NCBI RefSeq assembly: GCF_000003815.2
Contig: NC_049993.1
Coordinates: 19,562,702-19,626,701, forward strand
DNA from: Branchiostoma floridae
Lineage: Eukaryota > Chordata > Leptocardii > Amphioxiformes > Branchiostomatidae
Direction of reading: 5' to 3'
Length of the DNA stretch: 64,000 nt
Under the pieces are notes generated by a model, which had not been told where the DNA came from, made no database searches, and worked only from the letters and a program-made list of their open reading frames with translations. The translations under genes were made by a program, and so were the position numbers. Below are positions 23,701-60,142 of this stretch, piece after piece; within the stretch, counting starts at the first letter, position 1, and every line of letters begins with the position of its first letter.

Positions 23701-26700
23701 GTTCCGTAACACTTAACTGTTCAAACCTGTTCCTTGTTCCTTGACCCATGTCTTGAGATATTGGTCTATATAATGCTAATTCCAGACCTGTGACTGTCAT
23801 TCACCTGCAACCATTGACCGCTCTATGAACGCCATAACTCTTTACTCTTGCTGTCCTGTAGAGCCCCCATTGCGGTAGGCAGGACCACGATGTCATCATC
23901 TCAGATGCAGGAGTGTGGGATGAAGGGGAAGGGAGTCACTGTGCTGCACACGTACCTGGATCAGCTCTGGTGAGCAACAGTTTATACCCAAACACTCTCA
24001 AGATACCTTCCAGGACAAGATCGTCTGTGTTGATAATGCAGAAATTGAAAAGTTTCCTAAGAAGGTAGAGTTAATACTTCAAGATAGAATTAACTCAAGA
24101 TAGCCCAGGTTACATTCCATTAATTACTCCTCCTGTTCAGGGAACATGGTGACCAGACCCCCCTCCCCACCATGGCTACCCAGCAGTCCTGTCCTGAAGG
24201 TCATGTGCCTGACCTTGACTCAGGAGATGCAACATCAGAGGAACAACTGCAAGGACAACTTGCTGCAGAAGCCTCAAGCACCACGGACACTGTACCTATA
24301 GAAAACCTGGTCTTAAATGATGACCTTGGTGATGAAGGTGACCTTGAGAAAGTAAATGACCTTGATACAGAGATTACTGTAGGTGGAGTGAAGGATGATG
24401 GGAATGAATGTGGAGAGGAAGAAGGAGAGACAAGAGATGAGGAGGATGAGGTATCTCCTGTCGGTAAGACAGACCAATTTCTCTCCCTCTCTACAATTCA
24501 TCCCTGCCAAGTTTACTTTACAGGGACTATCACATAGATGTTATTAAACCTTTAAGTGTTTTCAAAAGTAGAAGGTACATGTATCAACTTCATGTTAGTG
24601 TTGAGGCTAGTAAATGAAATAAGACAACAGCTGTAAATGTAATTAAGCTCCATTAAATTGTATCTGCCACTTTGAAAAACAGTGAGAGATCTCTGGTGCA
24701 GCACACCCCTTGTATGCACAGTGTAGACATACAGGGGTGCATTATTATGGGAGATTTGTTGAGACATATTATTGAGGGTGCGGTATATACATGGCCTGGC
24801 AGAATTGTGATTAACTTTAAGTTAGTAGATGTTAACTTCTGTTGTTTCTGTTGTTTGACTGATCTGTTTTGTGTTAACGTTATGTGATTCCACAACGCAT
24901 GTGTTACCTGGCTAAAAAGGCTATAGGATGACTTTTACCCTTACCTATACCTGTTGCATTCCCTCCCCCCCCTTCAGACCAAATGGACTCTCTCCTGTAC
25001 CAGTGCTTCCTCCACGCCCTGAAGACAAACGTGAAGAAGACTGACCTTCCCCTCCTCACCAGTAAACTCCTTAGAGGCCACATGCAGCCTTGTTGGTGAG
25101 TAAGACTTCACATAGTTACTGTGACTTAAGGATTGGCATGTTTGATGGAAGAATAACACCTAAGCTCAAAGGTTTGCATGTAACATTCTTTTTGAACAGT
25201 CAAAGGTAACATTGATCATAGAAAACTTATATGTTTTTTTTTCAATTACATGTATAAAAAGGGTAGAAACTGTTAAAGTTGAGTATTTGCTTTGTGATTT
25301 TGAGATTTGTGTATACTATTTAAATTAAAGGAATCATGATTCAGAAATATATCTTGATGGCATTTTAAAGTTTTCCAGGTGAACTATAAAAAATAAGGGT
25401 ATTAAACAGTGGGGATTTCCCACAAGATTTTACATTTTTCTTAATTCGTTCAATTCTTCAAACCCTAAAGTTTGTAGAGCCCAATGGATATATATAGGGC
25501 AGCAAGTTCCCTTGCTGTTTCAGTATCAGTTGTTTTCCAGTCACAAGATACCCAGACACAAGGACTGCAGCAGTCAGATTTATTTTAGTATTTTTACTAC
25601 AACAACACAGCAGTGTAGCCATTCATTCTGGTCCATAAACTTGTAAAGCTTGCAAACTCTGTGGCAGTAAAGAATACTTTTTACACTCAACAATACAAGC
25701 CAGCTTGCTGATAGTAGATGAAACCATTATACTAATTAAAAATATCTTAACATCTTGCCTAAAGAAGATTCTTGTAAGATTTCATGTATGAAGTTGCTTT
25801 TGTTTACTGCTTTGTACATGGATCTATAGAGAGTGAAATTTGGATACTTCGATACTTTATTCAGCTCATTAGCTATATGTACATAATTTCATCATAAAAT
25901 CTGTCATAAATGTTGAAGTGGAAGTTTGGAAAATTCAAACTCAACCAGAGTGGTCCCCAACTAAAATGGTTCATTAAAGAAGTATCTGGTTATATAACTG
26001 ACACTTTTCAGGTTATGTTTCAGTATTTTTTCTATGCCATACCATTTTCCGTCGGCTTGTTAGGAAATATTGTGTTCCTGTACCTAGGATGTTCTGCACT
26101 GTTACATGTATCTGTACTTCCTGATACAGTGGTAAACAGTATCAGTAACAAACACATGTCCATCCTCTGTCACAGCCACCCCGTGAGGATTGTTCAGTTT
26201 GTCCCTATCACTGCTGATTGTTGACACCCACATGCCATTTGGGTGGAACACCTGAAGCTTCTTACCATGTTCTACCCCACCTACACCAGACCTATCTCCA
26301 GCATTTGCCAGAACTATGTTCCCCTTGCTGTCAGCTGACACCCCATGAGGAGTCCACATGTCCTGTGGCTGTGTGCCCCACTGACCAAACTTGTGTTGGA
26401 AGTTCAGATTCTTGTCAAACACCTGAACACGGCTGTTTTCTTTATCTGCCACAATGATGTTGTCTTCTTTATCCACACAGACAAAATATGGGCCATTAAA
26501 CTGCCCCTCCTCCTGCCCCTTCCCTCCCACCTGTTTCACCAGTGTCCCATCTGCCTCAAACAGGAAGATGCTGTGTTTGCCATAATCAGCTACAACAACC
26601 CTCCCATCCCTCTGTACTGCCAGGCCATAGGGCAGTGTGCAATATTCACCCAGAGGAAATTTGTGCAGCAGTTTTCCTGATGGGGAAAATTTCTTCACTT

Positions 26701-29700
26701 CCTTCCCAGAGTTCACCACTATGGTGCCATCAGTCTGAACTGCTAGTCCTCTTGGGTGGGTAGTAGGAAATGAATGACAAAACTTCCCACTCAGATCAAA
26801 CACCTGAACACGATTGTTGTAAGTATCAGCCACATACAGCCTGTCACCCCTGACTGCTACACCTATAGGCCTGTCAAACTGCCCCTGCTGGCTGCCCTCC
26901 TGCCCAAACCTCAGTACAGGGTTGTTACTGCCCACATCTACAGTGATAGAACCCAGGTCCTTCATAATCCCCATACAGACCCCCAGTGTGTGTTTCCCTG
27001 ACTCCTGAGGTCTCCACTCTCCACCCCAGACCCTCCTAACTCTGCTAGTTTGTCCCTTCCTTGCAGCTAGTGGGGGGCTGGTGTGTGCTGTAGTCTGTAT
27101 CAGGGTGGTTTTGCCCAGCTGTGGCGAGGTCACCTCTATCTGTGGTGTAACATCCCCACCTGTAAGATCTGCAGTGTTGGTTGTGACTGTGACAGAGCAG
27201 GGCAGACTCTCTACTGCTGGTTCTTCTACATGAAGAGTAAATGCGGACAAGGAACCACCAGACACCTGGGATAAGCTGCTGGGTTGAAAGGTCACTTTTG
27301 TATTACCTACAAAACTCTTGTGTGTTTGCTGCAAGGGCAGTTTCTGAAGCCTTTCTTCCATTTGCTGCCTCAAGATGTGAAAATCCTTATCATCTTTACA
27401 GTCTAAAATATTTTGAGACAATGCTACCTCTTCCTTAGTCTTTCCTAGCTCCATCTGCAATTTCTTTTTCTCCTGAGTCAGTTCCTCTCTCCTGTCTCTG
27501 TTGACCTCTTGTGCCTTTTTGACCATCTCATGCTCTTCCAGCTTTAGATTTAGGTTTAGTTGTGACCTCAGTTTTTTGTAGTGCTGTTGGATTTCCTTCT
27601 CGACTTCCTGACAGTTCTGTTTGACAGCGCTGATTTCCCGGTCAATAGTCTCCATTTGCCCAGTTATCTTGGAGATGGCTGCTTCGGCTTCTGCTTTGTA
27701 CTTTGGTGCAAACCTTTTGCCTACATTAGGAACAAATTGGAAATATATATATATATATATATATACATTGTACTTAGAAACCCCGACTCACCCTGTAGTG
27801 CTTTAATCTTGAAAGAATCTTTTGTTAGATGACTGTCAATGACATTAGAAAAACACATCTGAGCAACTTGATTACATTATGATTGTTTTTTTTACACATT
27901 CAGTGATCACTGTACAAGTTGTAATGTATGTGTGTAAAGCCTCCAGTTAGCCACATGATTTTCTGCCTGCAAAGAATGCACCTTAAATCATAGGTCTAAT
28001 AAGAAGCAGTGGACTGTCAAGGACAGTCACAAATGTTGTAGTCACTGTACAATTTGGTCACAGGTGGGTACCTATCTGTATCTGTATCTGTATCTATATA
28101 GCCGGTATAACCGCCGTTCGGCGTAACACACCAGCTTTGCAGGCACGCGGCGCGGCAGCAGCTGGTTATATTACACCGAACGACTCGTTACCCCTAACTT
28201 TTGCACATCTATCTGCAAGCGTTCTTTAACGCATGTAAGTCACGGGCAAAGTCAGACATAAACTTTAAGATACCTTGAAAAACCGTATGACATTGGAAAA
28301 ACTTTGCCTCTTATTGTTAAACAGCCGATGCTGTAGGGCTGATATCAATTAGTATTTTACCATGGTCAATATTGACCAAAGCTTGCCTTACCCAATGGTA
28401 CAATGACCAAGGTTGTGAAAACTCATCATCTGCCCTTTTGAATAAAGAAAATTTTACCTTCAGACAATGTCATGTGACTCCCAGCTGATGCGTAGCCTGA
28501 ATCAGATGACAGAACGCTTCCTGACGAAATGGTGCTTGCCACTGACTGGACACTTGCGACTGACTGGACACTTGCAATGGATCGGATGCTTCCTGCCCTT
28601 GTTTTCTGTGTGATCTCCAGTTCTTCTGTATGACTGGAAGTGTCCAGCGATGCCAGGTGTGACGTCACCTGTTCCACCTGCTCTTCCTCAGGATGCTGTG
28701 GCTCACCTGGGACAGGTTTAAAATTAGTTTTAAAATTTAGTACATTCAGCTTCCACCTGCCAAACCAAGTAATTTCATTTTTGGAATTTTGAAAAAAGTA
28801 CAGGTGGTATCTTAGTGACTCCAGTAAAATCCAGACCATATACAGAATATTGTGTTGCAGTTGTTGTGTTGAGTAATAGGCTGCAAGACCTGGGGAAAGC
28901 CCTGCAGAAGTCTAGCTTGTGTTGTTGCACACAGACTTGACCATCGGCGGTGAACAGAGTGTCCGTCAGGACAAAAAGGACTGTGATGATGATGATGAAT
29001 AGGCCATATTAGAATCAATCCCACCCTAAATTTCCCATGACGCACACAAAACTTATCACATCAAACAATAAGTCCTTGAATGTGTACCTTTCTTGAAGAA
29101 GTCCCTCCAAGCGGTGTAGTCCTGCTCCAGAACCAGAGTCCTCACCACCAGCTGGTCTCCTCCCTCCAGGCTCCGCATCTCCTCAGTCATCAGCAGCTCA
29201 GTCAGGCTGTCAGACAGGCGGCCGCTCGTGCAGGAACCCCAGAAATGGGAAAATTTGGGCTCAGACTCAAACCTCAGAAACAGTATTGCACAACCCCAGT
29301 ATTTACTGACTATGATGGCCTGTTTTTCTTCGATTTTGTCCTGAAGCTGATCAAACTTTCTTTCCAAACTTTCTTGGGACAAAAATGTTTTTGCTCTCTC
29401 CAGTGACTTAACTTGATTTTCTTGATACATGTAAAGTGCTTTAAACTCTTCATCCCTCATTCTACTCTTCAGTTGCAGAACCTGCTCATTTTGATATACT
29501 GTGGCCAAAAGATGTGGATTTGGAATCGTGGTTAGCTGGGGTTGTTCTCCAATTGCTATATCAAAACTCCCTTGGAAGCCGGGGTAGATAGCCAGGGCCA
29601 TGGGCATAGCTGGAAAACAAAGAAACCTGGTTTTTTCTCTGTTATATTTAAAGTTTTATCACATGTTTGAAGTACAAAATGGAACATTTGGCATGCATGT

Positions 29701-32700
29701 ACCTTTCATTTGTCCTTTCACCATCTTTTTGGAGTCTAGGGTATCAGTAAGTGTCCCAAGGAAACAACGTTTAGCCTGTGATGAACAGTTACTGGGCAGT
29801 TTTAATCTTCAACCCATACAATGTATGATGTTTCCTGCACTGAAACTGAAAGTCATCCTGTACTTACGCTGCATGAGGGTATGATGTGGTTCACTCATGG
29901 GGTCTGTCTGTTGTAGAGCTGCTGCTGCTGCTGCTGCTTGTGCTTAAACAGATAAAACGAACACAACTAAGTTGAGATTTTGGCAATTTTTTTTATTGAG
30001 GTAAAGGTAAAGGTAGTCCCATTGCCTTTTTTTGAGGATGTAGGTGTAGTGGTTTGTTATCTGCTGTGTCTAGGGCACGGTATTGGAAGGTGGAGCCCAT
30101 CCCGATCCATCACCTCCCATCGCCTTTTACCTCCCCAACTGAAATGAGGTACCCATTTTTACATCTGGGTTAAGGGAGGAAGGTCGTGTCAAGGGCTTTT
30201 TTAAAGGGCACACAATCGGTATCATGACAGGATTTGAACTCTTCTGCTAATACCATAATTGATATTCATTTTCTAATTCTTATTGTGACTGAAAGAAGAT
30301 GCATATGTGAGCTTGGAAGTTCTGGATAAAGTCAGTGACAGCTTTACTGCTTGTGGAATACTGAAAAATAAATAAATGCATAGTATAACTTATACTTATA
30401 CTATAAGATACCATTTCTGTTTTTCAAACAAAATAAACTTAAAACCCCTTTTACATACACCTACAGTTATTTGGGTCATGGAAATGTGTGATCATGACAG
30501 TTCTAAAATTCTTGTAGGAGTTACCTGAGCTTATTTGTCTCATCTATTGTCATGTAGAAATTGTTCAGACATACCTTCAGATTCTGCCCTCTGCTGTTGC
30601 TCAAGTTCTTCAGCTTCCTTGGCCAATCTTCCTTTCCCCAAACTTTGTAAAAGCTGCACAAGTAACCTTAGATTACCATATCCTATCTTATTGTCTGCCT
30701 GTAACAGTCTAAAAATGTCCAGAGCTGTTGCATGTTGCACTCTTGCCGCTCCCAAAATTTCAGGAACCAGCAAGTTCCGTAGCCTTTTTAAGTCGTCATC
30801 CGACAAGTTTTCAGAAATCTTGTTGTAGAGCTGGGTTAGGGGTGAAAGTTGGGCCATGGTTGGTGCCTGGATCCAGCAAGATGATCAGACCTCTGGATGT
30901 GCATGAAGAAGTTTGATTATTAGTTGGATTATTCCTCTCTTGGCATCCTGATATTTTACTGTTAGACAGTTACAATTTATCACATTAGGCAGTAAAGTTG
31001 AGTTCTCAAGTATGCAGACCACAAAAGGGCAATTAAAATGTCATAGTCTCATTCATGAAATCTCATGTTATTCGTTACTCACCTGATAAGGACAATAAGT
31101 TGAAAACCAACATGTTGGCCATCGTTACTGGTGAATACTAGACCTTTGACCCTTACAATATTCAGTAGCTGTTTACTGAAGCACAAACCACATCAATCAG
31201 AGACTACTGTAAGTAACATGTGACAGGTACAGTACAGGAATGCTTGAGAAACTCTCAAGATTGTTTTTTTTACAAGACAAGTAGAGAAAACCCACCTTAA
31301 TTTTCCCTGCTAAAGTTGAGTGTGGACCCTGGACCTTCTGGCCTATGAACATTGTACCCTTAAAGCATGCTGGGAAAATCATTGAGTTAATATTAACTTG
31401 AAGTAGTTTCCCCAGTCAATAATGTTGACCAGTCTGACTCCCCAAGGTCATGATGTGTACACAGTCACATGCAAGACTTTACCTGCTACTGTTGTGGTCC
31501 AATTAGCTTCTGAAAGTGTGCAAATATTTAATATTTAGGTGCTTCAGGACTTTATTTATCTATCATTATACATGTCATTGTTCACTTTTGTACTCCTATT
31601 GTACAATATTATAGACTAGTGCTCCAGACCTATTGTAAGAGAACAACCTGGGGAAGACTACTCTCCAAGCAGAGGTTTGGCTTGGCTTTTTTTCTCAGGT
31701 TTTCTATTTTGTACCATTATCCTTAATCATTGTAACATGTCAAAAGCAACCAGAGCCAAACCTTTGCTTGGAGAGTACACTAGTTAGAATGGTCAAGCCC
31801 AATAGTATATACACTAACTGTATGTGATTGGTTCTCAAGTTGAGGCTGCAGACATCTTGTCCCAACGAACTACATGTTGTACCTGACTGCAAATACTGTT
31901 GTTTACCAAGGTTAGCTAACAAGGTTACCTGTAACATTACCTGGCTATTTATGTATTTCTGTCATGTTTAACCAGAGTAGCCCAACTCATGCAGGGGTGT
32001 GACCACTGCTTCACAGTGGGGCACTATGTACAGAAGTGTATGTATCCACTACCTTTTGTCAATGACAATGAACAGATCTGTTTGAGAGCAGGTTTTATAC
32101 CCTAATTATTGGTATGCAAACTTAAGTTAAGGAGGTTAAGACAAATTTCAGTCCAAAGAAAAGTAAGACAAATACAACACATTAGGCTAAATGTAAGATG
32201 GCTAGTGACCCTACCTCTGGACTAAGAAGTCATGAGTTCAAATCCCAGCTGTTTTGCTCACCCAATGTGCATGTTACTGGAGTGTAAAGTTCAACTTGCA
32301 GTCCTTAAGACAGGACATTAAGCCATGGCTCTCTGTAACTTTTTGCCCATACAATGAATCCTGTCGATGTCAACCATCTCTTCAGCTGCCCCAAACTAAC
32401 TCTGAACACAGGAAGCGAGCGATGATTGTGTAAGTTTGTTGTGCGTTAGGGCGGTGCTCTGGAACTCCAATATCATCTCACTTCTCTGAGTTAAAATCAA
32501 CAGTAACGCCTCAAATTATTGTATGAATAGAGAACCTCACTACTGAACACTGATATTATCTATTCATTTGGCTTGGATTATTTTTCAATCATAAATAAGT
32601 TAAATCATTTACATCTTTTAGTGTATCATTTCTTTTGTCCTTGTATCTCAGTTATTTGTGAATAGTTGTACGTTAGACTGAGTCACATTTCTGACATACT

Positions 32701-35700
32701 AGGTTTCTTTTGACTTGTACCATTACTATAAGGCAGCAAGCTTCTTTGCTGTTTAAGTATCAGTGTTCCAGTCACAAGATGCACAGACACAAGGACAGCA
32801 GCAGTCACATTTATTTTAGTCTTTCACCTCACTCACCTCACCGGTCCCATAGCCTCACCGGCCATAGGGGCAGCAATGCCATCAACGTTTCTAAGTTTTC
32901 CATCTCCTTCTATCTTCAGCCAGGGTTTCTAGCTGATGTACTGTTTGTCCCGACCATTCTTTCAGGTCACTAGTCCAAGTCCGTCATGGACGTCCCCTAG
33001 GTCTTACACCCTCCGCCCTACCTTGCAGTATAGTGTGCGTCAGAGTGGCCTTTGCTCTTGTAGCGTGGCCAAACCACTGTAACTTCTTTTTTTTCACAAG
33101 CAAAAGGAAACTGGGACATGGGCCTGCCAGGGCATTAACACGCTGCATGACTTCTCTGTAGTGTGCGATGACCAGTGGACCCGAAGTAGTCTTCGGTAGC
33201 AGTTCATCTTGAATGCATTAATCCGTTTTACAATCTCAGCGTTAAATTTCCATGCCTCAGCTCCATATAGGAAGACTGATAACACAAGGGAGCGTAGTAG
33301 TTGGATTTTTGTTTGCGGGGAAATGTTATGGCTATTCCAGATGTGTTTTAATCTTGACAATACGGAAGTTGCCTTGGCTATTCTGACCTTTATCTCTCTT
33401 ACTGAGCTACAGTCCTCTGTCTGAAGACTCAAAATCTCCATACAATGAATCCTGTCGATGTCTTTACAAGTCACAAAAACAACAGACTACAACACACTGC
33501 AGTGTAGCCATTCATTTTGCTCCATCAACTTGTAAAGCTTGAAATTCAATGGTTGGTAGGAAAGCTTTCTACACTCAACAATACAAATCAGCTTATTGAT
33601 AGTAGATTTAAACATTTTTTATACTAATTAAAAACTCTTGTCTAGATTTAGATTCCTGTGATTTTTCATTACATGTAGTCATCCCAGCTTAAAGCCTATT
33701 ATTGTCTGATGACATTAAATGTCAGTAGTTGAGTCTTGATATTCATATAAGATTTTGAATAAAATAGTCTCAGAAAGAACAGTTTTCTCTTTAAAGTGAG
33801 TCAGTCTATCAACTGTTATGAGTTACATGTATCTTAAGTCTATACTTAGTCTAGTGTTTAGTTATGTTCTTATCATTGATAAGATATAATTTCTTTTTAC
33901 ATTTATTTAAAAGTATATTATACAGATTGATTTCTCAAAATATCAAAAGCAGTTACTGATAGACAATTCGATTGACTCTAGAAATTAGCACATTAGAAAG
34001 GAAAAGGAATATTCAAGTGAAAGAGCTGGTGTTTGCTGGTGTTTGCTGGTGTTTGTGTTGGACGTTTATACCGGCTATACAAAACAGAATGATACAGAAT
34101 GATACAGAAATATTTGAAAACTTGCCAAACTCAATCAGAATGGCCCCCAACTATATCCAGTCCTTAAGCTGTAAATGAGAGAAGCTCCTGGCTATTCAAT
34201 GCTTTTCAGTCTTATTTAGTGGGTTTGTTAGGAAATCACTACAAATGATAGGTCTTGTTTTGGATCGTTCTGTATTATTACATGTATCTGTACTTCCTGA
34301 TACAGTGATCACCAGTATCAGCTACAAACACATGTCCATCCTCTGTCACAGCCACCCCGTGGGGAAGGTTCAGTTTGTCCCCATCACTGCTGATTGTTGA
34401 CAACCAGGTACCGTCTGGGTGGAACACCTGAAGCTTCTCACTATGTCCAACACCATCAATTATACATGTACCCCCGATGTTTGCCAGAACTATGTTCCTC
34501 CTGCTGTCAGCTGACACCCCATGAGGAGCAAACATGTCCTGTGACTGTATGCCAAACTGACCAAACTTGTGTTTGAAGTTCAGACTCTTGTCAAACACCT
34601 GAACACGGTTGTTGCCTTTATCTGCCACAATGATGTTGTCATCTTTATCCACACAGACAAAAGTTGGCTGGTGAAACTGCCCCTCCCCCTGCCCCTTCCC
34701 TTCCACCTGTTTCACCAGTGTCCCATCTGCCTCAAACAGGAAGATGCTATGTTTGCCTAGATCAGCAACAACAACCCTCCCATCCCTCTGTACTGCCAGG
34801 CCATAGGGGTTTGTGCAATATTCACCCAGAGGAAATTTGTGCAGCAGTTTTCCTGATGGGGAAAATTTCTTCACTTCATTCCCAGATCTCACCACAGTAA
34901 CTATGGTGCCATCAGTCTGAACTGCAACTGATCCAGGGTTTGTTGTAGTGGAAAATGAGTAACAAAACTTCCCACTCAGATCAAACACCTGAACACGCTG
35001 GTTGGCAGTATCAGCCACATACAGCCTGTCCCCCCCTGACTGCTACATCTACAGGAGTGTTAAACTGCCCCTGCTGCCTGCCCTTCTGCCCAAACCTCAG
35101 TACAGGGTTGTTACTGCCCACATCTACAGTGAGAGAACCCAGATCTTTCTTACCCCCCATACAGACCCCCAGTGTGTGTTTCCCTGACTCCTGGGGTCTC
35201 CACTCTGCACCCCAGACCCTCCTAACTCTGCTGGTTTGTCCCTTCCCTGCAGCTAGTGGGGGGCTACTGTGTGCTGTAGTCTGTATCAGGGTGGTTTTGC
35301 CCTGTGGTGAGGTCACCTCTATCTGTGGTGTAACATCCCCACCTGTAAGATCTGCAGTGTTGGTTGTGACTAATGTGACAGAGCAGGGCAGACTCTCTAC
35401 TGCCAACTCCTGTACATCTATAGTCAGTCTGCTGTCTTTTTGAACCTTCTGTGCCTTTGTGACAATTCCCAGTTCTTCCCCCTCAGGTTTGAAGCTGTGC
35501 TCTTTGATCTCTTTTTGCTCCTGTTCATCTTGCTGTCCTGTAGCCGTGAGTTTCCTGCCAAGGTTCTCCACTCCCAGGGTTATCTCAGAGACTCCTGCTT
35601 CGACTGAGGCTTTGGACTTTACTGTAGATGTGTCCATTTCTCTGGGATCCCGAATTTGTCTCCCTGCCAGGAAGAAAATTGTTAAAATTTTCTATCGTAA

Positions 35701-38700: not shown

Positions 38701-41700
38701 TTGATATCTTCGATACCCAGTTTATAAATTTAAAGCAGTTCGGATGTAGGTTACCCCGCAGATAAAGGTTAATTAGCATTGGGAATATTTTTTGTTTTTG
38801 TTTTTGCTATTAAATGCACCAAGTTGAAAACCTCACACACCTTCTTTCCTCTGCTCTTGTTCAAGTTGTTCAGCTTCGTCGGCCAATCTTCCAATCCCCA
38901 GACTTCTTAAGAGCTGCGCAAGGAATCGTAGTTTGCCCTTCCCAATCTTGTTCTCATCCTCTAACATGTTGAACATTTCAATCGGTGTTGCTTGTTCCAC
39001 TTTTGCTTTTCCGAGACCTTCACGTGCGAGAATGGCCCGTAGATTTCTAACTTCTTCTTCTGACAAGCTGTTAGAAATCTTCACAAACAGCTTGGTTAGG
39101 GCAGAAAGTTCAGGTTCAGCCATGGTTGGGATGTAGCAGTTTCCTTCAAGGTGTATCTGATGTCTTGGAGCAACAAAAATAAGTTTTAGTTAGTCTTCTA
39201 CTTCAAGTTTAAGATAGTTTTGATTGGTTTAAACTTGTAGTTACTGTACGATAAACTTGAAATTGGCAACATATTTTTGATCATGATGTCAGATTGCAAC
39301 AGAAGTTACAAATTAATGTTGCATGATATTCAGATTACAACAGCAGGTACCATGATATTCAGGTTACATTTATAGGAGGTACCAACTTGAGATATTCAGA
39401 CTACAGGAGGTATTATGATGTGCAGGAAGATAGGAACACATAACTTTTAGATAGAGCCACTGTGACATTAGATACATGACTCAAAAACATCTTTTAAGTC
39501 TTGTGATGATGGCTTTAATGATTTAATCACTCATTGTTGTTACTTCAGCCAAAGTGTCTTCATGTGTATTTGCCTCTTCATATTAGTTATCAAGGAGTAC
39601 ATGACTGTGCATAATTATTGATATATAAATTTTGGTCGTAGTCTGCTGTCCACCCTGCAGATGCCTATCAGTCTCCACTTTATCCTGCAGTTCGTTACAA
39701 TGTTCGTAAGCTCCTGTCATGTTCTGCTAGTGGCCAATAGTTAAAGTTGAATCACTCAGGTCTAAGTCATTCAAGGAGCAACAAAAATGGCCACAATTAA
39801 TGTAGTGAAGAGACTTTGACCCCTCTTTGTGCTCTATCTCAGCCAACCGTACTGTGACTCAGTTATTTATAGACTACTGTAACAAGCATGTCAATGAAGC
39901 CAACACAGGCCTCAATGATGGCACAGGTTAGGGAAGAGTCATGTATGTCATAGGAGCCTCACCTGTATAACTTTGTGGTGAACTTGCTTCACCAGAGTCC
40001 TGCAAGGCTTGGGCGGTCCAAGTGTGCCGAGAAATGTGGGTAAATATTAACCAGAGCTGCTTACCTGAGGTCACACAAGTAAACATGACAGACCTTTTTT
40101 TAAAACACTTATTGTTGTGGTCCAGCTACAAAGTGTTCATTGTTACTTTCATTCAAAAGCGGCCTCAAACTAGTCTTTAATTAGCTTACTGCAGAGAAAT
40201 GAGTTAGATATTAACCAGAGTTGCTTCCCTATTAAGGTCAAATGTACACAGTCACGTGACAGACACAAACAATAACACTGTTGTGGTTGATTATGAAGGA
40301 CTACATGTAAGTGTGTGTTGATTCAAATATGAATTGTGATCTCAAAGTAGTTAACCTTGTCAAAGACCTAATCTTCCACTTAGTGTGGTAGAGAAGACAG
40401 TATGTTCAGTTCTTTTATGAGTTCACTAATTGTATGGAAAAATTCTCCGAGCTCTTTTTAACGAGAACAATTAACAGGCTCCAATTAACATACCATGGCT
40501 TAACGTCCCGTCCTAAGGACTAAAGCCCTTCCCAGTTAGTGTGCATGTTAATTATTTGAGCGACATACATGATCACCAGTATGAGTAACAGTTGAAGTGT
40601 GCGGAGAAATGAGGGTAAATATTAACCAGAGCTGTAACGTTATACCTGAGGTCACACAAGTACACATGACAGACTTTTTTTTAAAAACACTCTTACTGTT
40701 GTGGTCCAGCTCACTAAATGTGCATAATGTATATTTGGTGTGAAATGCTATCTCATACTTTTTTGTTTGTTTTTAATTAGCTCGCTGAAGAGCTAATCTA
40801 CTACCAGTCATGAGTAAAAAGGGAGAGACCATGCAGACTATTTACAGGTTCATTATTATTTAGTACATTGTACCAGCCTGAGGGAAATTTCCCTAGCTCT
40901 TTCCAACAAGTATGATGAACACTGGCCCACAGCTTGATGTCACTTCTAAGAACTGCAACTCTTTCTCTTATGCATGTTGAGTCACATTTCTGACATACTA
41001 AGTTTCTTTTGGCTTGCACCATAACTATTGGACAGCAAGTTTCCTTGCTGTTTCAGTATCAGTTTTTCAGTCACAAGATGCACACTCAGACACAAGGACA
41101 GCAGCGGTCAGATTTATTTCAGTCTTTACAAAGTCAAGAAAGAAGTTCAACACAACAGTGTAGTCAATTCTGGTACATCAACTTGCAAAACCACTTAATG
41201 ATTAATGATGGGAATTTTATACTTGTGACATGTGTATGTCAGTTAGTGATGACAATCACCATGCATAAATCATGAAAATGTGCAAGTCATTTGCATAAAA
41301 TTTACAAAAGCTAAACTTAAAACTCAATGGCTGGTAGGAATACTTTGTACACTCAGCAATACCAATCAGCTTGCTGATAGTAGATTTAATCATTTATACT
41401 GAAATATTCTGATACCATCTAAATGAAGATTCCTGTGAGATTTCATTATTTCTTTTTTTTGTTTAGAAATATTCTTAACATTTTACAATGCAGAGGGGAT
41501 AACAGTGGATGTTCACCTTTACTAGTTGCCCCCCCCCCAACCATACATGTAACACAACAATAAAACAGTAATATCAACTAACATTGCATGTAGTTATCCC
41601 AGCTTTAAGTCTAATATCATTCATTGTCTGATGGTATCAGATATACCATCGATATTTGGAATCTTGATTTTACACAGTAAGTCTTAGAAAGAACATTTCT

Positions 41701-44700
41701 CTTTAATTAAAGTATGTCAGTCTATAAACAGTGGTTACACATGATGAGTTTTTCAGTCAGGTGATTGGACCTATTCCAGACTAATGCTTACTTTAGAAAT
41801 TCTCCACATCTAGCTTTATTTCTCAAGCTATTCTACTAGCAAAAGTTATTTTTTAGTTGCTATGTACATTGATTGACACTAGAAATTGATACAAAGAAAC
41901 TATAATATATAATGTTATCATTTTTTCATAAAATCCATCTTTAATATCTAAGTGGAAGATTGGAAATCTTGTCAACCTCAATCAGACTGATCCAAATTAA
42001 TTATCCAGTCCTAAAAGTAAATAAAAGATTGAAGTATCTGGTCATTTAACACTTTTCGTGCTGTTTCAGTAATTCTTTTTATTGAAAAATTCCTTTTCAG
42101 TGAGCTTCTTAGGAACTACCATGATCCTGTTGCATGTTTTGTACCGTTACATGTATCTGTACTTCCTGATGCAGTCGTCACCGCCATCAGCTACAAACAC
42201 ATGTCCATCCTCTGTCACAGCCACCCCGTGGGGAAGGTTCAGTTTGTCCCCGTCACTGCTTATGGTGGAAACCCATGTACCATCTTTGCGGAACACCTGA
42301 AGCTTCTTACCATTAGCCAGAACTATGTTCCCCCTGCTGTCAGCTGACACCCCATGAGGGCCCCACATGTCCTGTGGCTGACTGCCTTTCTGACCAAACT
42401 TCTGTTTAAAGTTCAGATTCTTGTCAAACACCTGAACACGGTCGTTATCTTTATCTGCCACAATGATGTTGTCTTCTTTGTCCACACATACAAAACCTGG
42501 CTCATCAAACTGTCCCTCCCCTCCCACCTGTTTCACCAATGTCCCATCTGCCTCAAACAGGAATATGCTGTGTTTGCCTGGATCAGCTACAACAACCCTC
42601 CCATCCCTCTGTACTGCCAGGCCATAGGGTTCTGTGCAGTATTTACCCAGAGGAAATTTGTGCACCAGTTTTCCTGATGGGGAAAATTTTGCAACTTCCT
42701 TCCTAGACGTCACCACTATGGTGCCATCAGTTTGAACTGCAAGTCCTGTCGGGTCATAAGTAAAAAATGAGTGATAAAACTTCCCACTCAGATCAAACAC
42801 CTGAACACGATGGTTATCAGTATCTGCCACATACAGCCTGTCCCCCCTGACTGCTACATCTATAGGAGTGTCAAACTGCCCCTGCTGGCTGCCCTCCTGC
42901 CCAAACCTCAGTACAGGGTTGTTACTGCCCACATCTACAGTGTGAGAACCCAGGTCCTTCCTACCCCCCATACAGACCCCCAGTTTGTGCTTCCCTGACT
43001 CCTGAGGTCTCCACTCTGCACCCCAGACCCTCCTAGCTCTGTTGGTTTGTCCCTTCCCTGCAGCTAGTGGGGGACTACTGTGTGCTGTAGTCTGTATCAG
43101 TGTAGTTTTGCCCTGTGGTGAGGTCACCTCTATCTGTGGTGTAACATCCCCACCTGTAAGATCTGCAGTGTTGGTTGTGACTGTGACAGAGCAGGGCAGA
43201 CTCTCTACTGCCGGTTCCTCTACATTTATACTGAATCCAGCTGACTCCTTGACCTCTTTTCTCACCAGTTCACACTTCCCTCCTGTAGCTGTGAGTTTCC
43301 TTCCAAGGTTCTCCACTCCCTGGGTTATCTTAGAGACGCCTGCTTTGACGGAGGCTTTAGGCTTTACTGTAGATGTGTCCATTTCTGTGGGATCTCCTGC
43401 CAGGAAGAAAGTTGTTATAGATAGATTGGAGCATGTCAAAATTTGTATGAAACTTGTCAGTATTGTTATTTTTTGCTAAAAGTACTTTATTTACCGTACT
43501 GGTCTATAGGACTTCGTGCATATTGGTTTCATCCCCATCTGGTCGTGGCATATTGGTTTAAAATACACAATCTAATCAACTCAACTCATCATCAACTCAA
43601 CTCAATGACTGATCAGCCGCCTTTCAATACCATGCCCTAGACACAGTTGACATAACTACCCACTTCCCCTGTGTATATGGCTGCCTCAAAAGGTTATAGG
43701 ACTACCTTTACCCTGTAATGTGTCTAATAGTATCGTAGTTGGATATCAGCCAGCATCTGAGGATATTTTTTAATATGACAAATCTAGAGTTTGTTACTTG
43801 CTTACATCAAATTTCAATCAAATATACAAATGTACCTTCTGTCTTCTGCTCTTGTTCGTGTTGTTCAGCTTCATTGGCCAATGTTCCTTTCCCCAAACAT
43901 CTCAAGACCTGTACAAGGAATCGTAGATTGCCCTTGTTGATTTTATTGTCTGCTTCTAACATGTTGATCATCTCAAGTGGTGTCGCTTGTTCCACTCTTC
44001 CCTGTCCAAGACCTTCACGTGCAAGAATGGCCCGTAGATTTCTGACATCTTCTTCTGACAAGCTGTTAGAAATCTTGATGAACAGCCGGGTAAGGGCGGA
44101 AAGTGCTGGTTCAGCCATGGTTGGTTTGTAGCAGTGGTTCCTTCAGGGTGTTTCAGGGGTCTGGAGATACAGAAACAAGGTTTAGTTAGTTTTCTTCTTA
44201 ACAGCGCTAGCCGGACAGAAATGGCCAATGCCGCTATGGTGGTAGTTATACCGACTGACATCATTTTAGTTTTTTTTGGCAGTAAAACCCTCTCAACATA
44301 CCCTCATACGCGTGCATGTCAGCAACAGGGCACTCCTGCCCACCAACCTGGGTAATATGTGGCGTCCTCTGCTTCCGACATGAATGAAATTATGCAGGGG
44401 GAGGGGGTGGATATAGTGTCAAAACAGGGCAGGACTTTTGGATCCTAATACAAGCCAGACAAACAGGGCAGGTCAGAAACTCTATGCGTGCTTGCTGGCT
44501 GACCATGATTATACAACTGTTTCACAGACCAAAATTTACACAAACCTGTTCCAAAATGTTAAAAACAGGAGCCAAGTTTTCCCACAGCCTTTTCAGTTGC
44601 TAAATCAACTTAACCCTTTTCTGGCCCCTTTGCCTGCAGGAAATTGGGCCATATTGTTAGATAGTAAACATTCTACCTGGCCTCTGCAAATACCATAAAC

Positions 44701-49388: not shown

Positions 49389-49394
49389 AATAAA
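49389..49394 (+). terminator. Poly(A) signal of the truncated Asterix copy
   Basis: AATAAA at the position corresponding to 20315-20320, in a conserved block. Confidence 0.45.
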
Positions 49395-49684
49395 GATGTT
49401 ACTCCCACTGTTTTGATATGGCTGATGTCTACTTTCATTGTATACAAGACAGAACTTAGAGATTTTACATTTACATATTCATTCACTGCAAACTTTACTG
49501 TATTATGGAGTACATCTTCTAAAATGTATAAATTCGAAAGTGACCCGCTAATTGAGTGTATGAAGAGTATCATGAAGAAGATGTTCAGAGACGTAACATA
49601 CATCCGCACATTGAAAGATTTCTACATTGTCAAGCAGCACCACAGCATTGTAATGGGATAATCAGGTACAGGTCATAGGTTGAC

Positions 49685-49697
49685 AGGTCAAGGGTCA
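49685..49697 (+). promoter_or_regulatory. DR1-type site upstream of eIF2D copy 2
   Basis: AGGTCA-A-GGGTCA, identical to the unit 1 site, 81 bp before the ATG. The flanks from about 49660 to 49727 are also almost identical. Confidence 0.45.
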
Positions 49698-49777
49698 GTG
49701 ATTGAGTCAGACGTGCACACGCGAAAAAATATAACAGGATAGTTTCAACTTCAACACGCGTCGCCTTGAATATCAAG

Positions 49778-52700: not shown

Positions 52701-54571
52701 GAAAAAGTCAGTATTCCCATTGTGTTCTAGTAAAAATATGCTTGGCTTTGTTTGCTAGTCCTTCTGGTATTTGTTTGCCCTAATTAGCTGACACTACAAG
52801 TGCCATTACTGTGTCATTACTGCATCATTACTTACAACACTTTGTGTACTATTCAAACAGACCTGATGTTACCAGGGGTGATACCAGGAGAGGAGGGGCT
52901 GCCTGTGATTGAGAAGAACAGCCTATGTGCCGTATCACTGCTGGGGAACAGGTAAGAGATTACCTCTCCTCCTACAACTTTGTTGGATAGGTTGACATGT
53001 CAAACAGATTTCCTCCAGAAGTTGTGGTTTTGTGCAGCTACTAACATGTCCTGCAGATTAATACACTGTAAATATCCTTCACCTCCTGTATCAGTTCATG
53101 AGTATTTGTGGATTTAAGAAGAGCATACAGTACTTCTTACTAGTACATATTTACTGGTGCTTTCCCAGCTGGTGACACGAACCATGACCTGTCAAACTGG
53201 TCAGTAAAAGGACTAACACAGTCATGCTCTTCAAACCCAAATTCCTTGACCCATGCCTCCTAATCTTGGTCCTGACCTGTGACTGTCATTCACCTGCAAC
53301 CGCTCTATGAACGCCATAACTCTTTACTCTTGCTGTCCTGTAGAGCCCCCATTGCAGTAGGCAGGACCACGATGTCATCATCTCAGATGCAGGAGTGTGG
53401 AATGAAGGGGAAGGGAGTCACTGTGCTGCACACGTACCTGGATCAGCTCTGGTGAGCAACAGTTTATACCCAAACACTCTCAAGATACCTTCCAGGACAA
53501 GATCGTCTGTGTTGATAATGCAGAAATTGAAAAGTTTCCTAAGAAGGTAGAGTTAATACTTCAAGATAGAATTAACTCAAGATAGCCCAGGTTACATTCC
53601 ATTAATTACTCCTCCTGTTCAGGGAACATGGTGACCAGACCCCCCTCCCCACCATGGCTACCCAGCAGTCCTGTCCTGAAGGTCATGTGCCTGACCTTGA
53701 CTCAGGAGATGCAACATCAGAGGAACAACTGCAAGGACAACTTGCTGCAGAAGCCTCAAGCACCACGGACACTGTACCTATAGAAAAGCTGGTCTTAAAT
53801 GATGACCTTGGTGATGAAGGTGACCTTGAGAAAGTAAATGACCTTGATACAGAGACTACTGTAGGTGGAGTGAAGGATGATGGGAATGAATGTGGAGAGG
53901 AGGAAGGAGAGACAAGAGATGAGGAGGATGAGGTATCTCCTGTCGGTAAGACAGACCAATTTCTCTCCCTCTCTACAATTCATCCCTGCCAAGTTTACTT
54001 TACAGGGACTATCACATAGATGTTATTGAACCTTTAAGTGTTTTCAAAAGTAGAAGGTACATGTATCAACTTCATGTTAGTGTTGAGGCTAGTAAATGAA
54101 ATAAGACAACAGCTGTAAATGTAATTAAGCTCCATTAAATTGTATCTGCCACTTTGAAAAACAGTGAGAGATCTCTGGTGCAGCACACCCCATGTATGCA
54201 CAGTGTAGACATACAGAGGTGCATTATTATGGGAGATTTGTAGGGACACATTATTTAGGGTGAGGGATATACGTGACCTGGCAGAATTATGATTAACTTT
54301 AAGTTAGTAGATGTTAACTTCTGTTGTTTGACTGATCTGTTTTGTGTTAACGTTATGTGATTCACAACTCATGTGTTACTTGGCTAAAAAGGCTATAGGA
54401 TGACTTTTACCCTAAGGCTTACCTTTACCTGCTGCATCCCCCCCCCCCTTCAGACCAGATGGACTCCCTCCTGTACCAGTGCTTCCTCCACGCACTGAAG
54501 ACAAACGTCAAGAAGATTGACCTTCCCCTCCTCACCAGTAAACTCCTTAGAGGTCACATGCAGATTTGTTG
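49778..54571 (+). CDS. EIF2D: eIF2D (copy 2), exons 1-7, continues beyond the window
   Basis: Exons 49778-49833, 51427-51617, 52088-52171 (first donor; alternatives to 52681), 52861-52951, 53344-53451, 53623-53945 and 54454-54571. Exons 1, 2 and 4-7 match their unit 1 counterparts exactly in length. The protein differs at a few positions (for example EKLVL for ENLVL and KKIDLPLL for KKTDLPLL). Exon 3 leads into 11 in-frame 51-bp repeats. Exon 8 onward (SWIB, SUI1) is expected past the right edge, beyond gene D. If the duplication is real, this copy is the better candidate for the functional gene because its array keeps frame. Confidence 0.9.
50001..50678. mobile_element. Hairpin-array DNA transposon (678 bp) with 10-bp target duplication
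   Basis: Flanked by TCTACTGCAG at 49991-50000 and 50679-50688; unit 1 has a single TCTACTGCAG at 20948-20957 (empty site). The ends are inverted repeats: CAAAACTACCGAGGTCACGG at left and, at right, CCGTGACCCGCGTAGCCTTG. Inside are about 13 short hairpins built from a TCRTCACTGG-type arm, a 3-6 base loop and a CCAGTGACGA-type arm. No ORF. The 9-10-bp target duplication suggests a Mutator-like mobiliser. Confidence 0.85.
51150..51370 (+). repeat. Two truncated copies of eIF2D exon 2 (unit 2)
   Basis: The first (from about 51152) has a good acceptor, then the exon 2 frame through MSTMKIYMKS to an in-frame TGA at about 51266. The second (from about 51291) starts AAGGAAGCTTCGAGC and runs to about 51355. 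The complete exon follows at 51427-51617. The arrangement matches unit 1 and so predates the large duplication. Confidence 0.85.
52148..52690 (+). repeat. 51-bp in-frame minisatellite of splice donors at eIF2D exon 3 (unit 2)
   Basis: Eleven head-to-tail units, donors 51 bp apart from 52171 to 52681 with no indels. Each unit encodes [18 protein letters not shown] and contains the junction GGGGCAG followed by GTCAGT. The final unit is GGGACAG. The frame stays open through all units, so any donor splices in frame to exon 4 (D-LMLPG). Confidence 0.97.
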
Positions 54572-55024
54572 GTGAGTAAGACTTCACATAGTTACCATAA
54601 CTTAAGGATCAGCAAATTTGATGGAAGAATCAAAGGTTTGCATGTAAGATTCTTTTTGAACAGTGAAACCTAATATTGATCAGAGAAAAGTTATGTATTT
54701 TTTTCAATTTATAAAAAGGTAGAAACTGTTAAGTTGAATCTTTGCTTTGAGATTTTGAGATTTGTGTATATAAAGGAATCATGAAATATATCTTGATGGC
54801 ATTTTAAACTTCACAGATGATGCATAGATAAACTACAAGAAATAAAGGGTATTATACAGTGGGGATTTTTGACAAGATTTTACAGGATTGTTTATTCCTT
54901 CGTTCCTTCAAACCCTTTTAAGTTTGTATTTCCTACTGGTACATGGGGCAGCAAATTTCCTTGCTATTTCAGTAGCACTGTTACAGTCACAAGATACACA
55001 GACACAAGGATGGCAGCAGTCAGA

Positions 55025-55030
55025 TTTATT
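55025..55030 (-). terminator. Poly(A) signal of DED-NHL gene D
   Basis: Minus-strand AATAAA, 564 nt after the stop, in the conserved 3'-end block. Confidence 0.65.
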
Positions 55031-55593
55031 TTTTACTACAACAACACAACAACTGTAGCCATTCATTCTGGTCCATAAACTTGTAAAGTTTGAAAACTCA
55101 GTGTCAGTAAAGAATACTTTTTACACTGTTACACAATACAAATCAGCTTGCTGATAGTAGATGAACCCATTATATACTAATCAAAAATATTTGAACGTCT
55201 TGCCTAAAGAAGATTCTTGTAAGATTTCATTTGATATTTGTATAAGCTGCTTTTGTTTTAATTACTGCTTTGTATATGGATCTATAGAGAGTAAACTTTG
55301 GATACTTGGATGCTTTATTCAACTCATTAGCTATCATACATAATTTCATCATAAAATATGTCATGAATGTCTAAGTGGAAGTTTGGAAAACTCAAACTCA
55401 ACCAGAAAATTGTCAACCTCAACCAGAGTGGTCCCCAACTAAAATGGCTAATTAAAGAAGTATCTGGTTATACAACACTTATCATGCTTTGTTTCAGTAT
55501 TCTTTCTATCCCATACCATCTTCAGCGGGCTTGTTAGGAAATATTGTGTTCCCGTACCTAGGATGTTCTCACTCACTAGGATGTTCTGTACTG

Positions 55594-58500
55594 TTACATG
55601 TATCTGTACTTCCTGATACAGTGGTCACCAGGATCAGCTACAAACACATGTCCATCCTCTGTCACAGCCACACCATGGGGGTTGATGAGTTTGTCCCCAT
55701 CACTACTGATGGTTGAAACCCAGATGCCATTTGGGTGGAACACATGAAGCTTCCTGCCATGTTCTACACCACCTTCACCAGAGTTATCTCCTCCATTAGC
55801 CAGAACTATGTTCCCCCTGCTGTCAGCTGACACACCATGAGGACCCCACATGTCCTGTGGCTGTCTGCCCCACTGACCAAACTTGTGTTTAAAGTTCAGA
55901 TTCTTGTCAAACACCTGAACACGGTGGTTTCTTTTATCTGCCACAATGATGTTATCTTCTTTATCCACACAGACAAAACGTGGCTCATCAAACTGCCCCT
56001 CCCCCTTCCCCTGCCCTCCCACCTGTTTCACCAGTGTCCCATCTGCCTCAAACAGGAAGATGCTGTGTTTGTCTGGATCAGCTACAACAACCCTCCCATC
56101 CCTCTGTACTGCCAGGCCATAGGGGTCTATGCAATATTCACCCAGAGGAAATTTGTGTAGCAGTTTCCCTGATGGTGAAAATTTCGTCACTTCATACACA
56201 GATTTCACCACTATGGTGCCATCAGTCTGAACTGCAAGTCCTACAGGGTTGATAGTAGGAAATGAATGACAAAATTTCCCACTCAGATCAAACACCTGAA
56301 CACGCTTGTTGAAAGTATCAGCCACATACAGCCTGTCCCCCCTGACTGCTACATCTACAGGCCTGTCAAACTGCCCCTGCTGGTTGCCCTTCTGCCCAAA
56401 CCTCAGTACAGGGTTGTTACTGCCCACATCTACAGTGAGAGAACCCAGGTCCTTCATACCCCCCATACAGACCCCCAGTGAGTGTTTCCCTGACTCCAGA
56501 GGTCTCCACTCAGCACCCCAGACCCTCCTAACTCTGCTGGTTTGTCCCTTCCCTGCAGCTAGTGGGGGGCTACTGTGTGCTGTAGTCTGTATCAGGGTGG
56601 CTTTGCCCTGTGGTGAGGTCACCTCTATCTGTGGTGTAACATCCCCACTTGTAAGATCTGCAGTGTTGGTTGTGACTGTGACAGAGCTAGGCAGACTCTC
56701 TACTACCGACTCCTGTACAGCAATACTGAACCTACCAAACACAGGTACTGAGAAGGAACCTCCAGAAACCTGGGATAGGCTACAGGGTTGGAAGGACACT
56801 CTTTTACAATCATCCAAACTCCTAGTTTGTGTTTCCTGCAAGGAGAGTTTCTGGAGCGTTTCTTCTATTTGTTGCTTTACGATAAGAAGCTCCTTTTCAT
56901 TTTTACAGTCTAAAATCTTTTGAGAGAATGCTACCTTTTCCTTGTTCTTTCCAAGTTCCATCTGCAATCTCTTTTTTTCCTGAGTCAGTTCCCCTTTTCT
57001 GTCTCTGTTGACTTTTTGTATGTTTGTGATTACCTCCTGCCTTTCCAATTTGAGTTTGGAGATTACCTGCTTGTAGTGCTGCTGGATTTCCTTCTCTACT
57101 TCCTGACAGTTCTGTTTGATGGCTGTGAGTTCCCTGTCAATGTTTTCCATTCCCTCAGTTATCTTGGAGATAGCTTCTTCTGCCTCTGCTTTGTACTTTG
57201 GTGCAATGTTTTTGCCTATGGTAGGAAAGAATAATTATTGGACCACTCATACAAAACATGCACCTTATTGTTAGAATCTTGAACTTCTTTCATTAGATGA
57301 CAGTCAGTGACATAAGAAGAACACATTATTTTCACACATTCAGTGATCACTATAGATGTATGTAAACGAAAAGCCCCCAGCAGTTGCATACATTACACAA
57401 TTTGCCTACGATGGGATCTCCCAACAACCCCCATTCTGATTTACCACTGTGTGTTTATCCTGATATTGGCCCATGCATGATGATAACGTTAATCTCATTT
57501 GAAAAGTGATGCTAAAAGCTCACTATCTGCTCTTCCGGGTAAAGAAAAAGAAGTATTACCTTCCGACAAAGTCATCTGGCTGCCAGCTGATGCGTAGCCT
57601 GAATCTGATGACAGAACGCTTCCTGACGATAGGGTGCTTGCGACAGACTGGACACTTGCGACAGACTGGACACTTGCGACTGACTGGACACTTGCGACTG
57701 ACTGGACACTTGCGACTGACTGGACACTTGCGACTGACTGGACACTTGCAATGGATCGGATGCTTCCTGCCCTTGTTTTCTGTGTGATCTCTAGTTCTTC
57801 TGGCTGTCTGGAAGTGCCCAGCGATGCCAGGTGTGATGTCACCTGTTCCACCTGCTCTTCCTCAGGGAGCTGTGGCTCACCTGGGACAGGTTGGGCAGGT
57901 ACATCAGCTTCCACCTGTCCTGTTGCACCTGTCAAACCAAGTAATTTCATTTTCTGAATTTTGAAAAGAACAATTTGGTATCTAATCACTAAAATCAACA
58001 GAGTGAACATATGCCAAATATTATTTGATATTAATAGTGAGCTGCCAACTATTCAGTTGCACCTGTCAAATCAAGTAAGTTCATTTTCAGTTTTTTGTAA
58101 ATTTAAAGCACATTGGTATTCATTTCAAGAATTTTGTAAAAGCAAATTATAATTGGTATTCATTTTCAGAATTCTTGTAAGAATATGACTTATTTTTAGA
58201 ACTACATGTACATGTACTTGTAAAACCACACTTGTAGTCAGTAAAATCAACGGACTGTCAGCGTATGAAAAATATAGTGTTGAGTAATAGGCCGTATTAG
58301 AATCACTCCCTTCCTAAATTTTCCAAGACACACATGAATCTTTGTAAAGCAAGCAAATAGTCTGAATTGATTGAATGAGTACCTTTCCCAAAGTAGTCCC
58401 TCCAAGCTCTGTAGTCCTGCTCCAGAACCAGAGTCCTCACCACCAGCTGGTCTCCTCCCTCCAGGCTCTGCATCTCCTCAGTCATCAGCAGCTCAGTCAG

Positions 58501-60142
58501 GCTGTCAGACAGGCGGCCGCTCGTGCAGGAACCCCAGAAATGGGCAAATTTGGGCTCAGACTCAAACGTCAGAAACAGGATCACACAACCTCTGTATGTA
58601 CTCACTATGATGGCATGTTGTTGTTCAATTTTGGCCTGAAGCTCATCAAACCTTTTCTCCAAACTTTCTTGGGACAAAAAGGATTTTGCTTTCTTTAGGG
58701 ACTTAACTTTTCTTTCTTCGTACATGTAAAGTGCCTTAAGCTCTTCATCCCTCATTCTAGTCTTCAGTTGGAGAACCTGCTCATTTTGATATACTGTGGT
58801 CAAAAGGTGTGGATTTGGAATGGTTAACTGGGGTTGTTCTCCAATCGCTATATCAAAACTCCCTTGGAAGCCTGGGTAGATAGCCAGGGCCATGGGCATA
58901 GCTGGAAAATAAAGAAACCTGTTTTTTCTCTGTTATATTTAAAGTTTTATCACATGTTTGAAGTACAAAATGGAACATTGGGCATGCATGTACATGTACC
59001 TTTCATTTGTCCTTTCACCATCTTTTTGGAGTCTAGGGTATCAGTAAGTGTCCAAAGGAAACAACATTTAGCCTGTAATGAACAGTTACCGGGCACAGTT
59101 ACTCTTCAACCCACACAATGCAGGATGTTTCTTGCACTTGAAAAGTCATCCCTATACTTACGTTGCATGAGGGTGTGATGGGGTTCACTCATGGGGGGTG
59201 TCTGTTGTAGAGCTGCTGCTGCTGCTGCTTGTGCTATATACAGATAACAATCAACACAAATAAATTGAGATTTTGGCAATTTTTTTTCATTTAGGTAAAG
59301 GTAAAGGCAGTGGGTTGTTATCTACTGCCAAAGTGTTTATTAACCAACCATCAGCTTCCACCACATTTTACCTCTCCAACCAAAGTCAGATACAGTGAGT
59401 TACCCATTTTTACACCTTGGTCAAGCGAGGAAAGTCATCTTGATGTTAAGTGCCTTTCCCAAGGGCACATGATTGGTAGCACGACAGGATTTGAACACTT
59501 TTGCTAATACCTTCATTTCATTGATACATATATTGGAAACTTGGAAACTTTATCTTATTGTGACTTAAAAAAGATGTGGGCTAGGAAGTTTGGTCAAGAT
59601 TCTGACATAAACAGCTTCTGGATAAAATCAGTGCTTTACTGGAGATACAATACTGGAAAATAAATAATGCATAGTATAGACATCCATTCAGTTTGTCCAA
59701 CACAATAAACCTAAAATCCTTTTTACAATAATATTACACCTACAGTTATTTGGGTATTAACTGTTCCTATAGCAGTTACCTGAGCTTACATATATGTATG
59801 TGCAGTGGTTGGCTTTACTCATCTATAGTCATGATCATGTAGAAATTGTTCAGACATACCTTCAGATTCTGTCTTCTGCTGTTGCTCAAGTTCTTCAGCT
59901 TCCTTGGCCAATCTTCCTTTCCCCAAACTTTGTAAAATCTGTATAAGTAACTGCAGATTGCCATATCCAATCTTATTGTCGGCCTGTAGCATTATAAAAA
60001 TGTCCAGAGCCGTTGCATGTTGCACTCTTGCTACTGACAAAATTTCAGCAGCAAGCAAGTTCCGTAGCTTTTTTAAGTCTTCATCCGACAAGTTTTCAGC
60101 AATCTTGTTGTAGAGCCGGGTGAGGGCTGGGAGTTGGGCCAT
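55594..60142 (-). CDS. DED-coiled coil-NHL protein D (five exons)
   Basis: Exons 60142-59860, 59233-59162, 58901-58383, 57928-57560 and 57215-55594 join in phase 1 throughout to about 954 residues. It is the unit 2 counterpart of gene A: DED (LYNKIAENLSDEDLKKLRNL), Ala/His exon with one Ala fewer, coiled coil plus possible TRADD-N-like domain (GCVILFLTF...[20 protein letters not shown]), Ser-rich exon, and coiled coil with NHL. The Ser-rich exon has six ASVQSV hexapeptides against two in A and a longer start (GATGQVEADVPAQ). The second coiled coil and the VESLPSSV region differ from A more than the NHL blades do. No frame breaks. Antisense in eIF2D copy 2 intron 7. Confidence 0.9.
59285..59505 (-). 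mobile_element. tRNA-derived SINE (second family), in gene D intron 1
   Basis: Ortholog of 29990-30245: TTACCTCTCCAACCAAAGT, ACCCATTTTTACACCTTGG and CTTTCCCAAGGGCACATGAT, then GGATTTGAACAC. More intact in the CTTTCCCAAGGGC tract than the unit 1 copy. Confidence 0.55.

Follow-up and report, generated by a model that had tools for sequence, protein, structure and literature searches.

We identified four genes, designated A to D, on the minus strand of a 64,000-nucleotide stretch of the Branchiostoma floridae genome (the window; 19.56-19.63 Mb of contig NC_049993.1, hereafter C15). In each, the first exon encodes a death effector domain (DED) and the last exon an NHL propeller. Sequence comparison gives strong support for a TRIM ancestry of these DED-NHL genes, and the swap of the RING/B-box front of a TRIM-NHL scaffold for a death-fold domain is well supported. 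We consider it moderately probable that the genes are TRIM-NHL genes with a replaced front whose products act as a ligand-bound, paired DED/TRADD-N signalling platform.

Architecture and extent of the gene family

The first-pass annotation had described four genes that open on a DED-like exon and close on an NHL exon, and Pfam profiles bear this out. All four DED exons exceeded the PF01335 gathering score of 35.9 bits (44.9, 44.6, 39.1 and 43.5 bits), and PF01436 (NHL) was matched in all four genes at E values of 4.9e-29 to 4.8e-35, with only the piece past a frameshift scanned in gene B. WD40 was rejected as a label for the C15 propeller, since it reached an E value of only 0.054 in one fragment against 4.9e-29 or better for NHL. 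No Pfam match to RING or B-box was found in exons 1, 3 and 5 of A and D, nor in B and C. The filamin-like region preceding the propeller matched PF00630 below threshold in gene C and two of three TRIM relatives and was unlisted in the rest; AlphaFold confidence (pLDDT) there is below 50.

Splicing of A to D is predicted from gene models, in which all introns are GT-AG and in phase 1, including the previously proposed junctions 30575/29942 and 43836/43396. The models of A (five exons, 915 residues), C (two exons, 510 residues) and D (five exons, 954 residues) run without an internal stop; gene B (39123-34278) carries a frameshift within its NHL exon near 35,03x, at a G run. We regard A to D as probable lancelet genes. 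The TRADD-N-like domain, the filamin-like region, the TRIM-type coiled coil and the TRIM relatives are additions to the first-pass annotation.

The genome searched comprised 513.4 Mb in 431 contigs. Pairing the listed DED and NHL matches by eye gave ten DED-NHL pairs on C15 (A to J). Copies B, F and G are broken, F and G by stops or split matches, and E is broken in exon 3; H, I and J are open in the exons examined. Copy J (21.23 Mb) holds a DED, exon 3, a linker-like stretch, the coiled coil and NHL in that order. Two further C15 DEDs stand apart: the one at 21.24 Mb has exon 3 and no NHL among the matches listed, and the one at 2.54 Mb has neither among them.

TRIM-NHL relatives, break point and probable cassette exchange

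The filamin-NHL part of gene D, used as a query against the genome, gave 133 matches (109 of 783 candidates were scored). Three open frames on the same contig, each of ~750 residues (L081, L085 and L088), are 85%, 82% and 79% identical to the filamin-NHL cassette of D. Their RING, B-box and NHL all lie above Pfam cut-offs, which makes them intact TRIM-NHL genes. The last exon begins at the B-box 2 end or shortly past it. The match to TRIM sets in within the next few residues in B and C and ~11 residues on in D, and in this exon copies H and I have GKLHDPKEV, against GENHDPREV at the B-box 2 end of a TRIM. In A and D the TRIM-type coiled coil is homologous to that of TRIM; B and C retain only a stub.

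We also found a dead first half of a RING at 44482-44416, ~300 bases upstream of the DED start of gene C and on the same strand (blastn E 2.5e-17). Collinear pieces of the start region and 5' flank, at 44536-44503 (E 2.1e-5) and 44677-44630 (E 7.5e-5), match one TRIM only. The half-RING is probably the former front of gene C. It may instead be a fragment of a neighbouring TRIM. Near A, B and D the blastn searches that found it revealed no comparable remnant. Together, the TRIM identities, the break point in the last exon and the half-RING support the earlier suggestion of a TRIM-NHL-like scaffold whose ligase front was exchanged, and we infer that the exchange ran from TRIM to DED genes. A passage of PMC3503706 describes a different recombination, in which TRIMs of B. 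floridae were joined to MATH domains.

To compare the last exons, we used ten sequences (A, C, D, E, H, I, J and the three TRIMs), leaving out B, F, G and TRIM-NHLs of other contigs. Where a DED gene and a TRIM gene share the residue, the third codon position differed at 453/1357 sites (0.334) of the coiled coil, 156/1802 (0.087) of the filamin-like region and 448/4346 (0.103) of NHL. The corresponding values were 0.216, 0.068 and 0.088 among DED genes and 0.319, 0.083 and 0.121 among TRIMs. Synonymous divergence (dS) of the DED reached at least 1 in pairs whose NHL dS was only 0.13-0.24. The likeliest account of these differences is that the filamin-NHL cassette was homogenised between DED and TRIM genes by gene conversion, or was acquired anew several times.

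Within the propeller, amino-acid variation is concentrated on the predicted top face. By convention, the d-a and b-c loops of a propeller form its top face, and we assigned loop classes from an AlphaFold model. Four or more residues occur at 25 of 96 top-loop sites, 2 of 50 bottom-loop sites and 7 of 123 strand sites, and none of 268 label rotations gave a clustering as extreme. The ratio of nonsynonymous to synonymous differences (pN/pS) was 0.79, 0.51 and 0.43 for top loops, bottom loops and strands. Top-loop pS is raised as well (0.272, against 0.130 and 0.148 in the other two classes), so that weaker homogenisation there may partly cause the variability. Positive selection on the top face was considered and is not claimed, given a pN/pS of 0.79 with raised pS. 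The variation makes a sensing head plausible, and a sensor role for NHL is likely.

The DED and the exon 3 domain

The D/E-RxDL charge triad is present in nearly all DEDs according to a passage of PMC6651876. Its RxDL part was found in none of 19 window-type DEDs and in all eight comparison DEDs, the latter being the top Pfam scorers (L001-L008), five of which come from a cluster on contig C17. The window-type sample comprised 19 of 20 loci drawn from 62 matches; L043 was left out, leaving 27 of 28 loci in the alignment. By sequence, the window DEDs are thus a divergent type in which the Pfam match holds and RxDL is absent, which weakens the case for recruitment of FADD or caspase-8. The ratio of nonsynonymous to synonymous rates (dN/dS) of the DED lay between 0.09 and 0.64 in all 15 pairs of A, B, C, D, H and J, at dS of 0.2 to 1.5. 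For exon 3 it was 0.40-0.47 (three pairs), and this pattern of purifying selection on DED and exon 3 argues against chance open frames. The Ser-rich linker of exon 4 gave 0.18 between A and D.

Exon 3 of the longer genes encodes a helix and a putative TRADD-N-like domain. PF20694 (TRADD-like_N) was matched at E ≤1 by 22 of 28 genomic relatives of exon 3 (best 7.9e-7), the sample being 28 of 30 loci drawn from 56 matches after L021 (a fragment) and L033 (an internal stop) were left out. Exon 3 of gene D itself had no PF20694 match at E ≤1, and none of the 69 places found in a genome search with that profile lies on C15. A published TRADD-N motif consists of a tiny residue followed by Ser or Cys (a passage of PMC8195603). 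All 28 exon 3 rows have G followed by C or S; the trimming pattern itself required this, with no row failing, and the published position was matched by eye. A sequence search of the PDB with the exon 3 alignment gave 11 matches at E 0.89 or worse, none of them TRADD.

Other labels for exon 3 were dropped. For PF13820 neither A nor D has a match in exon 3, no relative has one at E ≤1, and none of its 65 places in the genome is on C15. PF09034 was touched by one of the 28 relatives (E 0.091), and matches of the helix to Lebercilin and UFL1_C fell below cut-off and were judged coiled-coil noise.

Related families, proposed function and neighbouring features

A tandem cluster at 18.28-18.90 Mb of C17 contains ~60 genes with a DED and an NCOA6-type TRADD-N (for example L064, L068 and L072). 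Each of its 59 PF13820 places is preceded on the same strand, at no more than 4 kb, by a PF01335 match, and at least 22 of the 59 are followed within 4 kb by a match to the window NHL. Three of its propeller exons, each truncated at the end of its locus, were examined; all hit NHL (3/3) and none WD40 at E ≤0.1. In L072 a Death domain lies between DED and TRADD-N. Masked runs of N occur inside the genes of two relatives, L014 and L064.

Passages of Kaur et al. 2021 (PMC8195603) describe Branchiostoma expansions, of 13-129 proteins by species, that combine a DED, an NCOA6-clade TRADD-N, a low-complexity linker and a C-terminal WD40 propeller. The C17 cluster fits this family, and its profile matches suggest that the lancelet "WD40" propellers described there are NHL, which would tie that family to TRIM-type sensors and ligands. 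The same passages report DEDD2-clade TRADD-N expansions, usually with a DED (46-71 copies in cephalochordates), and DEDD2-clade TRADD-N fused to TRIM ligase domains, with the host species unnamed. The window genes resemble the NCOA6-clade family in their N-terminal DED, putative TRADD-N-like domain, low-complexity linker, C-terminal propeller and lancelet expansion, and the DEDD2-clade expansions in combining a TRADD-N-like domain with a DED and having TRIM-type partners. They differ from the NCOA6-clade family in that the DED lacks RxDL, exon 3 lacks PF13820 and NHL is far closer to the C15 TRIM-NHLs (79-85% identity) than to C17 NHLs (32-38%). In view of these differences in profile matches and identities, we read the window family as a second, TRIM-based DED-TRADD-N-NHL assembly.

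The source data of Kaur et al. 2021 may include the window genes; in its passages the words "nhl" and "filamin" do not occur, and no TRIM remnant devoid of a RING is mentioned. Our literature search, which most subscription journals lay outside, found no DED or TRADD-N joined to NHL in amphioxus or Branchiostoma and no work with TRADD-N, DED and NHL together; judged by title, "NHL repeat" and "death effector domain" co-occur only in TNFAIP8 and miR-17 works. Passages of PMC2575513 list further fusions of the DED in amphioxus and name NHL in none of them. The first-pass annotation had noted no characterised vertebrate protein with both DED and NHL. The combination is less unusual than this suggests, since DED plus TRADD-N plus propeller expansions in Branchiostoma and TRADD-N-TRIM fusions are already in print (PMC8195603, in the passages cited). 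We read these families as published and the TRIM-based DED-NHL variant as new. TRIM2, TRIM3 and TRIM71/LIN-41 carry RING/B-box; in the window genes none was found, and DED and TRADD-N-like exons stand in its place. Hypervariable loops on a C-terminal TRIM sensor are shared with TRIM5alpha, finTRIM and BTR, where, according to a passage of PMC3137616, the sensor is B30.2 and positive selection is reported, in contrast to NHL and no such claim here.

In the mechanism we favour, the DED exon would have replaced the RING/B-box front, joined in the longer genes by the TRADD-N-like domain and Ser-rich linker, with the coiled coil, the filamin-like region and the NHL propeller kept from TRIM, though B and C retain no more than a stub of the coiled coil. 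The six-bladed propeller would bind a ligand by its variable top face, and the TRIM-type coiled coil would pair two chains. Instead of transferring ubiquitin, the paired DED/TRADD-N ends would then serve as a docking platform for signalling partners, with TRADD-N the likelier contact in the long genes and the DED without RxDL probably pairing with its own kind instead of FADD or caspase-8.

The first-pass annotation had proposed, as a possibility, an apoptosis or immune receptor or adaptor with the NHL head as ligand sensor and the DED as recruiter of FADD or caspases. Its sensing head is plausible, and the DEDs do pass the Pfam cut-off, with FADD (E 9.7e-5) and then caspase-8 as the closest solved relatives of the gene A DED. 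The recruitment step is unsupported given the missing RxDL, a part of a triad stated for nearly all DEDs, and we find such a canonical apoptosis adaptor, with direct recruitment of lancelet FADD and caspase-8 by the DED, improbable. Somewhat less improbable, and still unlikely, is a role as RING-less partners, in which DED-NHL proteins pair with TRIM-NHL proteins by the shared coiled coil, or compete for their ligands, and thereby tune or block ubiquitination while the DED serves as a minor or self-assembling tag. Homology of coiled coil and cassette to the neighbouring TRIMs, cassette differences between DED and TRIM genes near the within-group lows and the lack of RxDL all agree with this. 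Against it stand the far greater divergence of the coiled coils and their reduction to a stub in B and C, which speak against general pairing, and the purifying selection on both DED and exon 3. That same selection, below 0.65 in every DED pair, tells against a decaying tandem array of exon-shuffling by-products without protein function. The broken copies B, E, F and G and the retroelement within the intron of B point toward decay, but A, C and D are open throughout and H, I and J in the exons examined, and we regard this explanation as very improbable.

Beyond the paired platform, we tentatively raise a more speculative possibility, that one gene-converting filamin-NHL cassette feeds both RING/B-box ligases and DED/TRADD-N adaptors on one chromosome as a two-output innate receptor system, DED-TRADD-N-NHL having been assembled at least twice from different donors. 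If so, homogenisation would maintain a shared backbone with diverse top loops, and recognition would pass between output classes. A change of signalling output may here be caught in the act, because one chromosome holds the likely donors, the break point and a probable fossil front. Should ligase and death-fold genes indeed exchange the cassette, innate receptor evolution in a basal chordate could be studied as a mix-and-match of sensors and outputs.

Table 1. Predicted features of genes A to D in the window.
Feature	Position	Strand	Content	Method
Gene A exon 5	26102..27720	-	TRIM-type coiled coil, filamin-like region, NHL propeller	
Gene A exon 4	28458..28706	-	Ser-rich low-complexity linker	
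Gene A exon 3	29088..29609	-	Helix, TRADD-N-like domain	
Gene A exon 2	29868..29942	-	Short, Ala-rich	
Gene A exon 1	30575..30857	-	DED without RxDL	
Gene B exon 2	34278..35663	-	Coiled-coil remnant, filamin-like region, NHL; frameshifted near 35,03x	
Gene B exon 1	38841..39123	-	DED	
Gene C exon 2	42147..43396	-	Short coiled-coil remnant, filamin-like region, NHL	
Gene C exon 1	43836..44118	-	DED	
Upstream of gene C	44415..44677	-	Probable fossil TRIM 5' end; frameshifted, one stop	blastn
Gene D exon 5	55594..57215	-	Coiled coil, filamin-like region, NHL	
Gene D exon 4	57560..57928	-	Ser-rich repeat linker	
Gene D exon 3	58383..58901	-	Helix, TRADD-N-like domain	
Gene D exon 2	59162..59233	-	Short, Ala-rich	
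Gene D exon 1	59860..60142	-	DED without RxDL	

An alternative in-frame acceptor of gene D exon 4, found by eye, gives a start at 57880, which corresponds to the acceptor chosen for gene A. Genes A and D lie in a block of ~13.5 kb present twice (18937-32450 and 48230-62505, spacing ~29.5 kb, pieces 76-100% identical), which is either a segmental duplication or an uncollapsed assembly copy. Each copy of the block also has an open frame on the plus strand (24124 and 53606). A 51-base unit is repeated at least 10 times at 52045-52809, and a related array lies at 22394-23073 in the other copy. An Rfam scan of the window gave no matches. Reverse-transcriptase-like open reading frames, recognised by eye, occupy 35777-37779 in the gene B intron on the opposite strand, and a plus-strand open frame at 14192-16861 (890 residues) resembles, by eye, another retroelement. 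A further plus-strand open frame, at 3659-5830 (724 residues), has a RING/B-box-like start that is 25-34% identical to the TRIM front.
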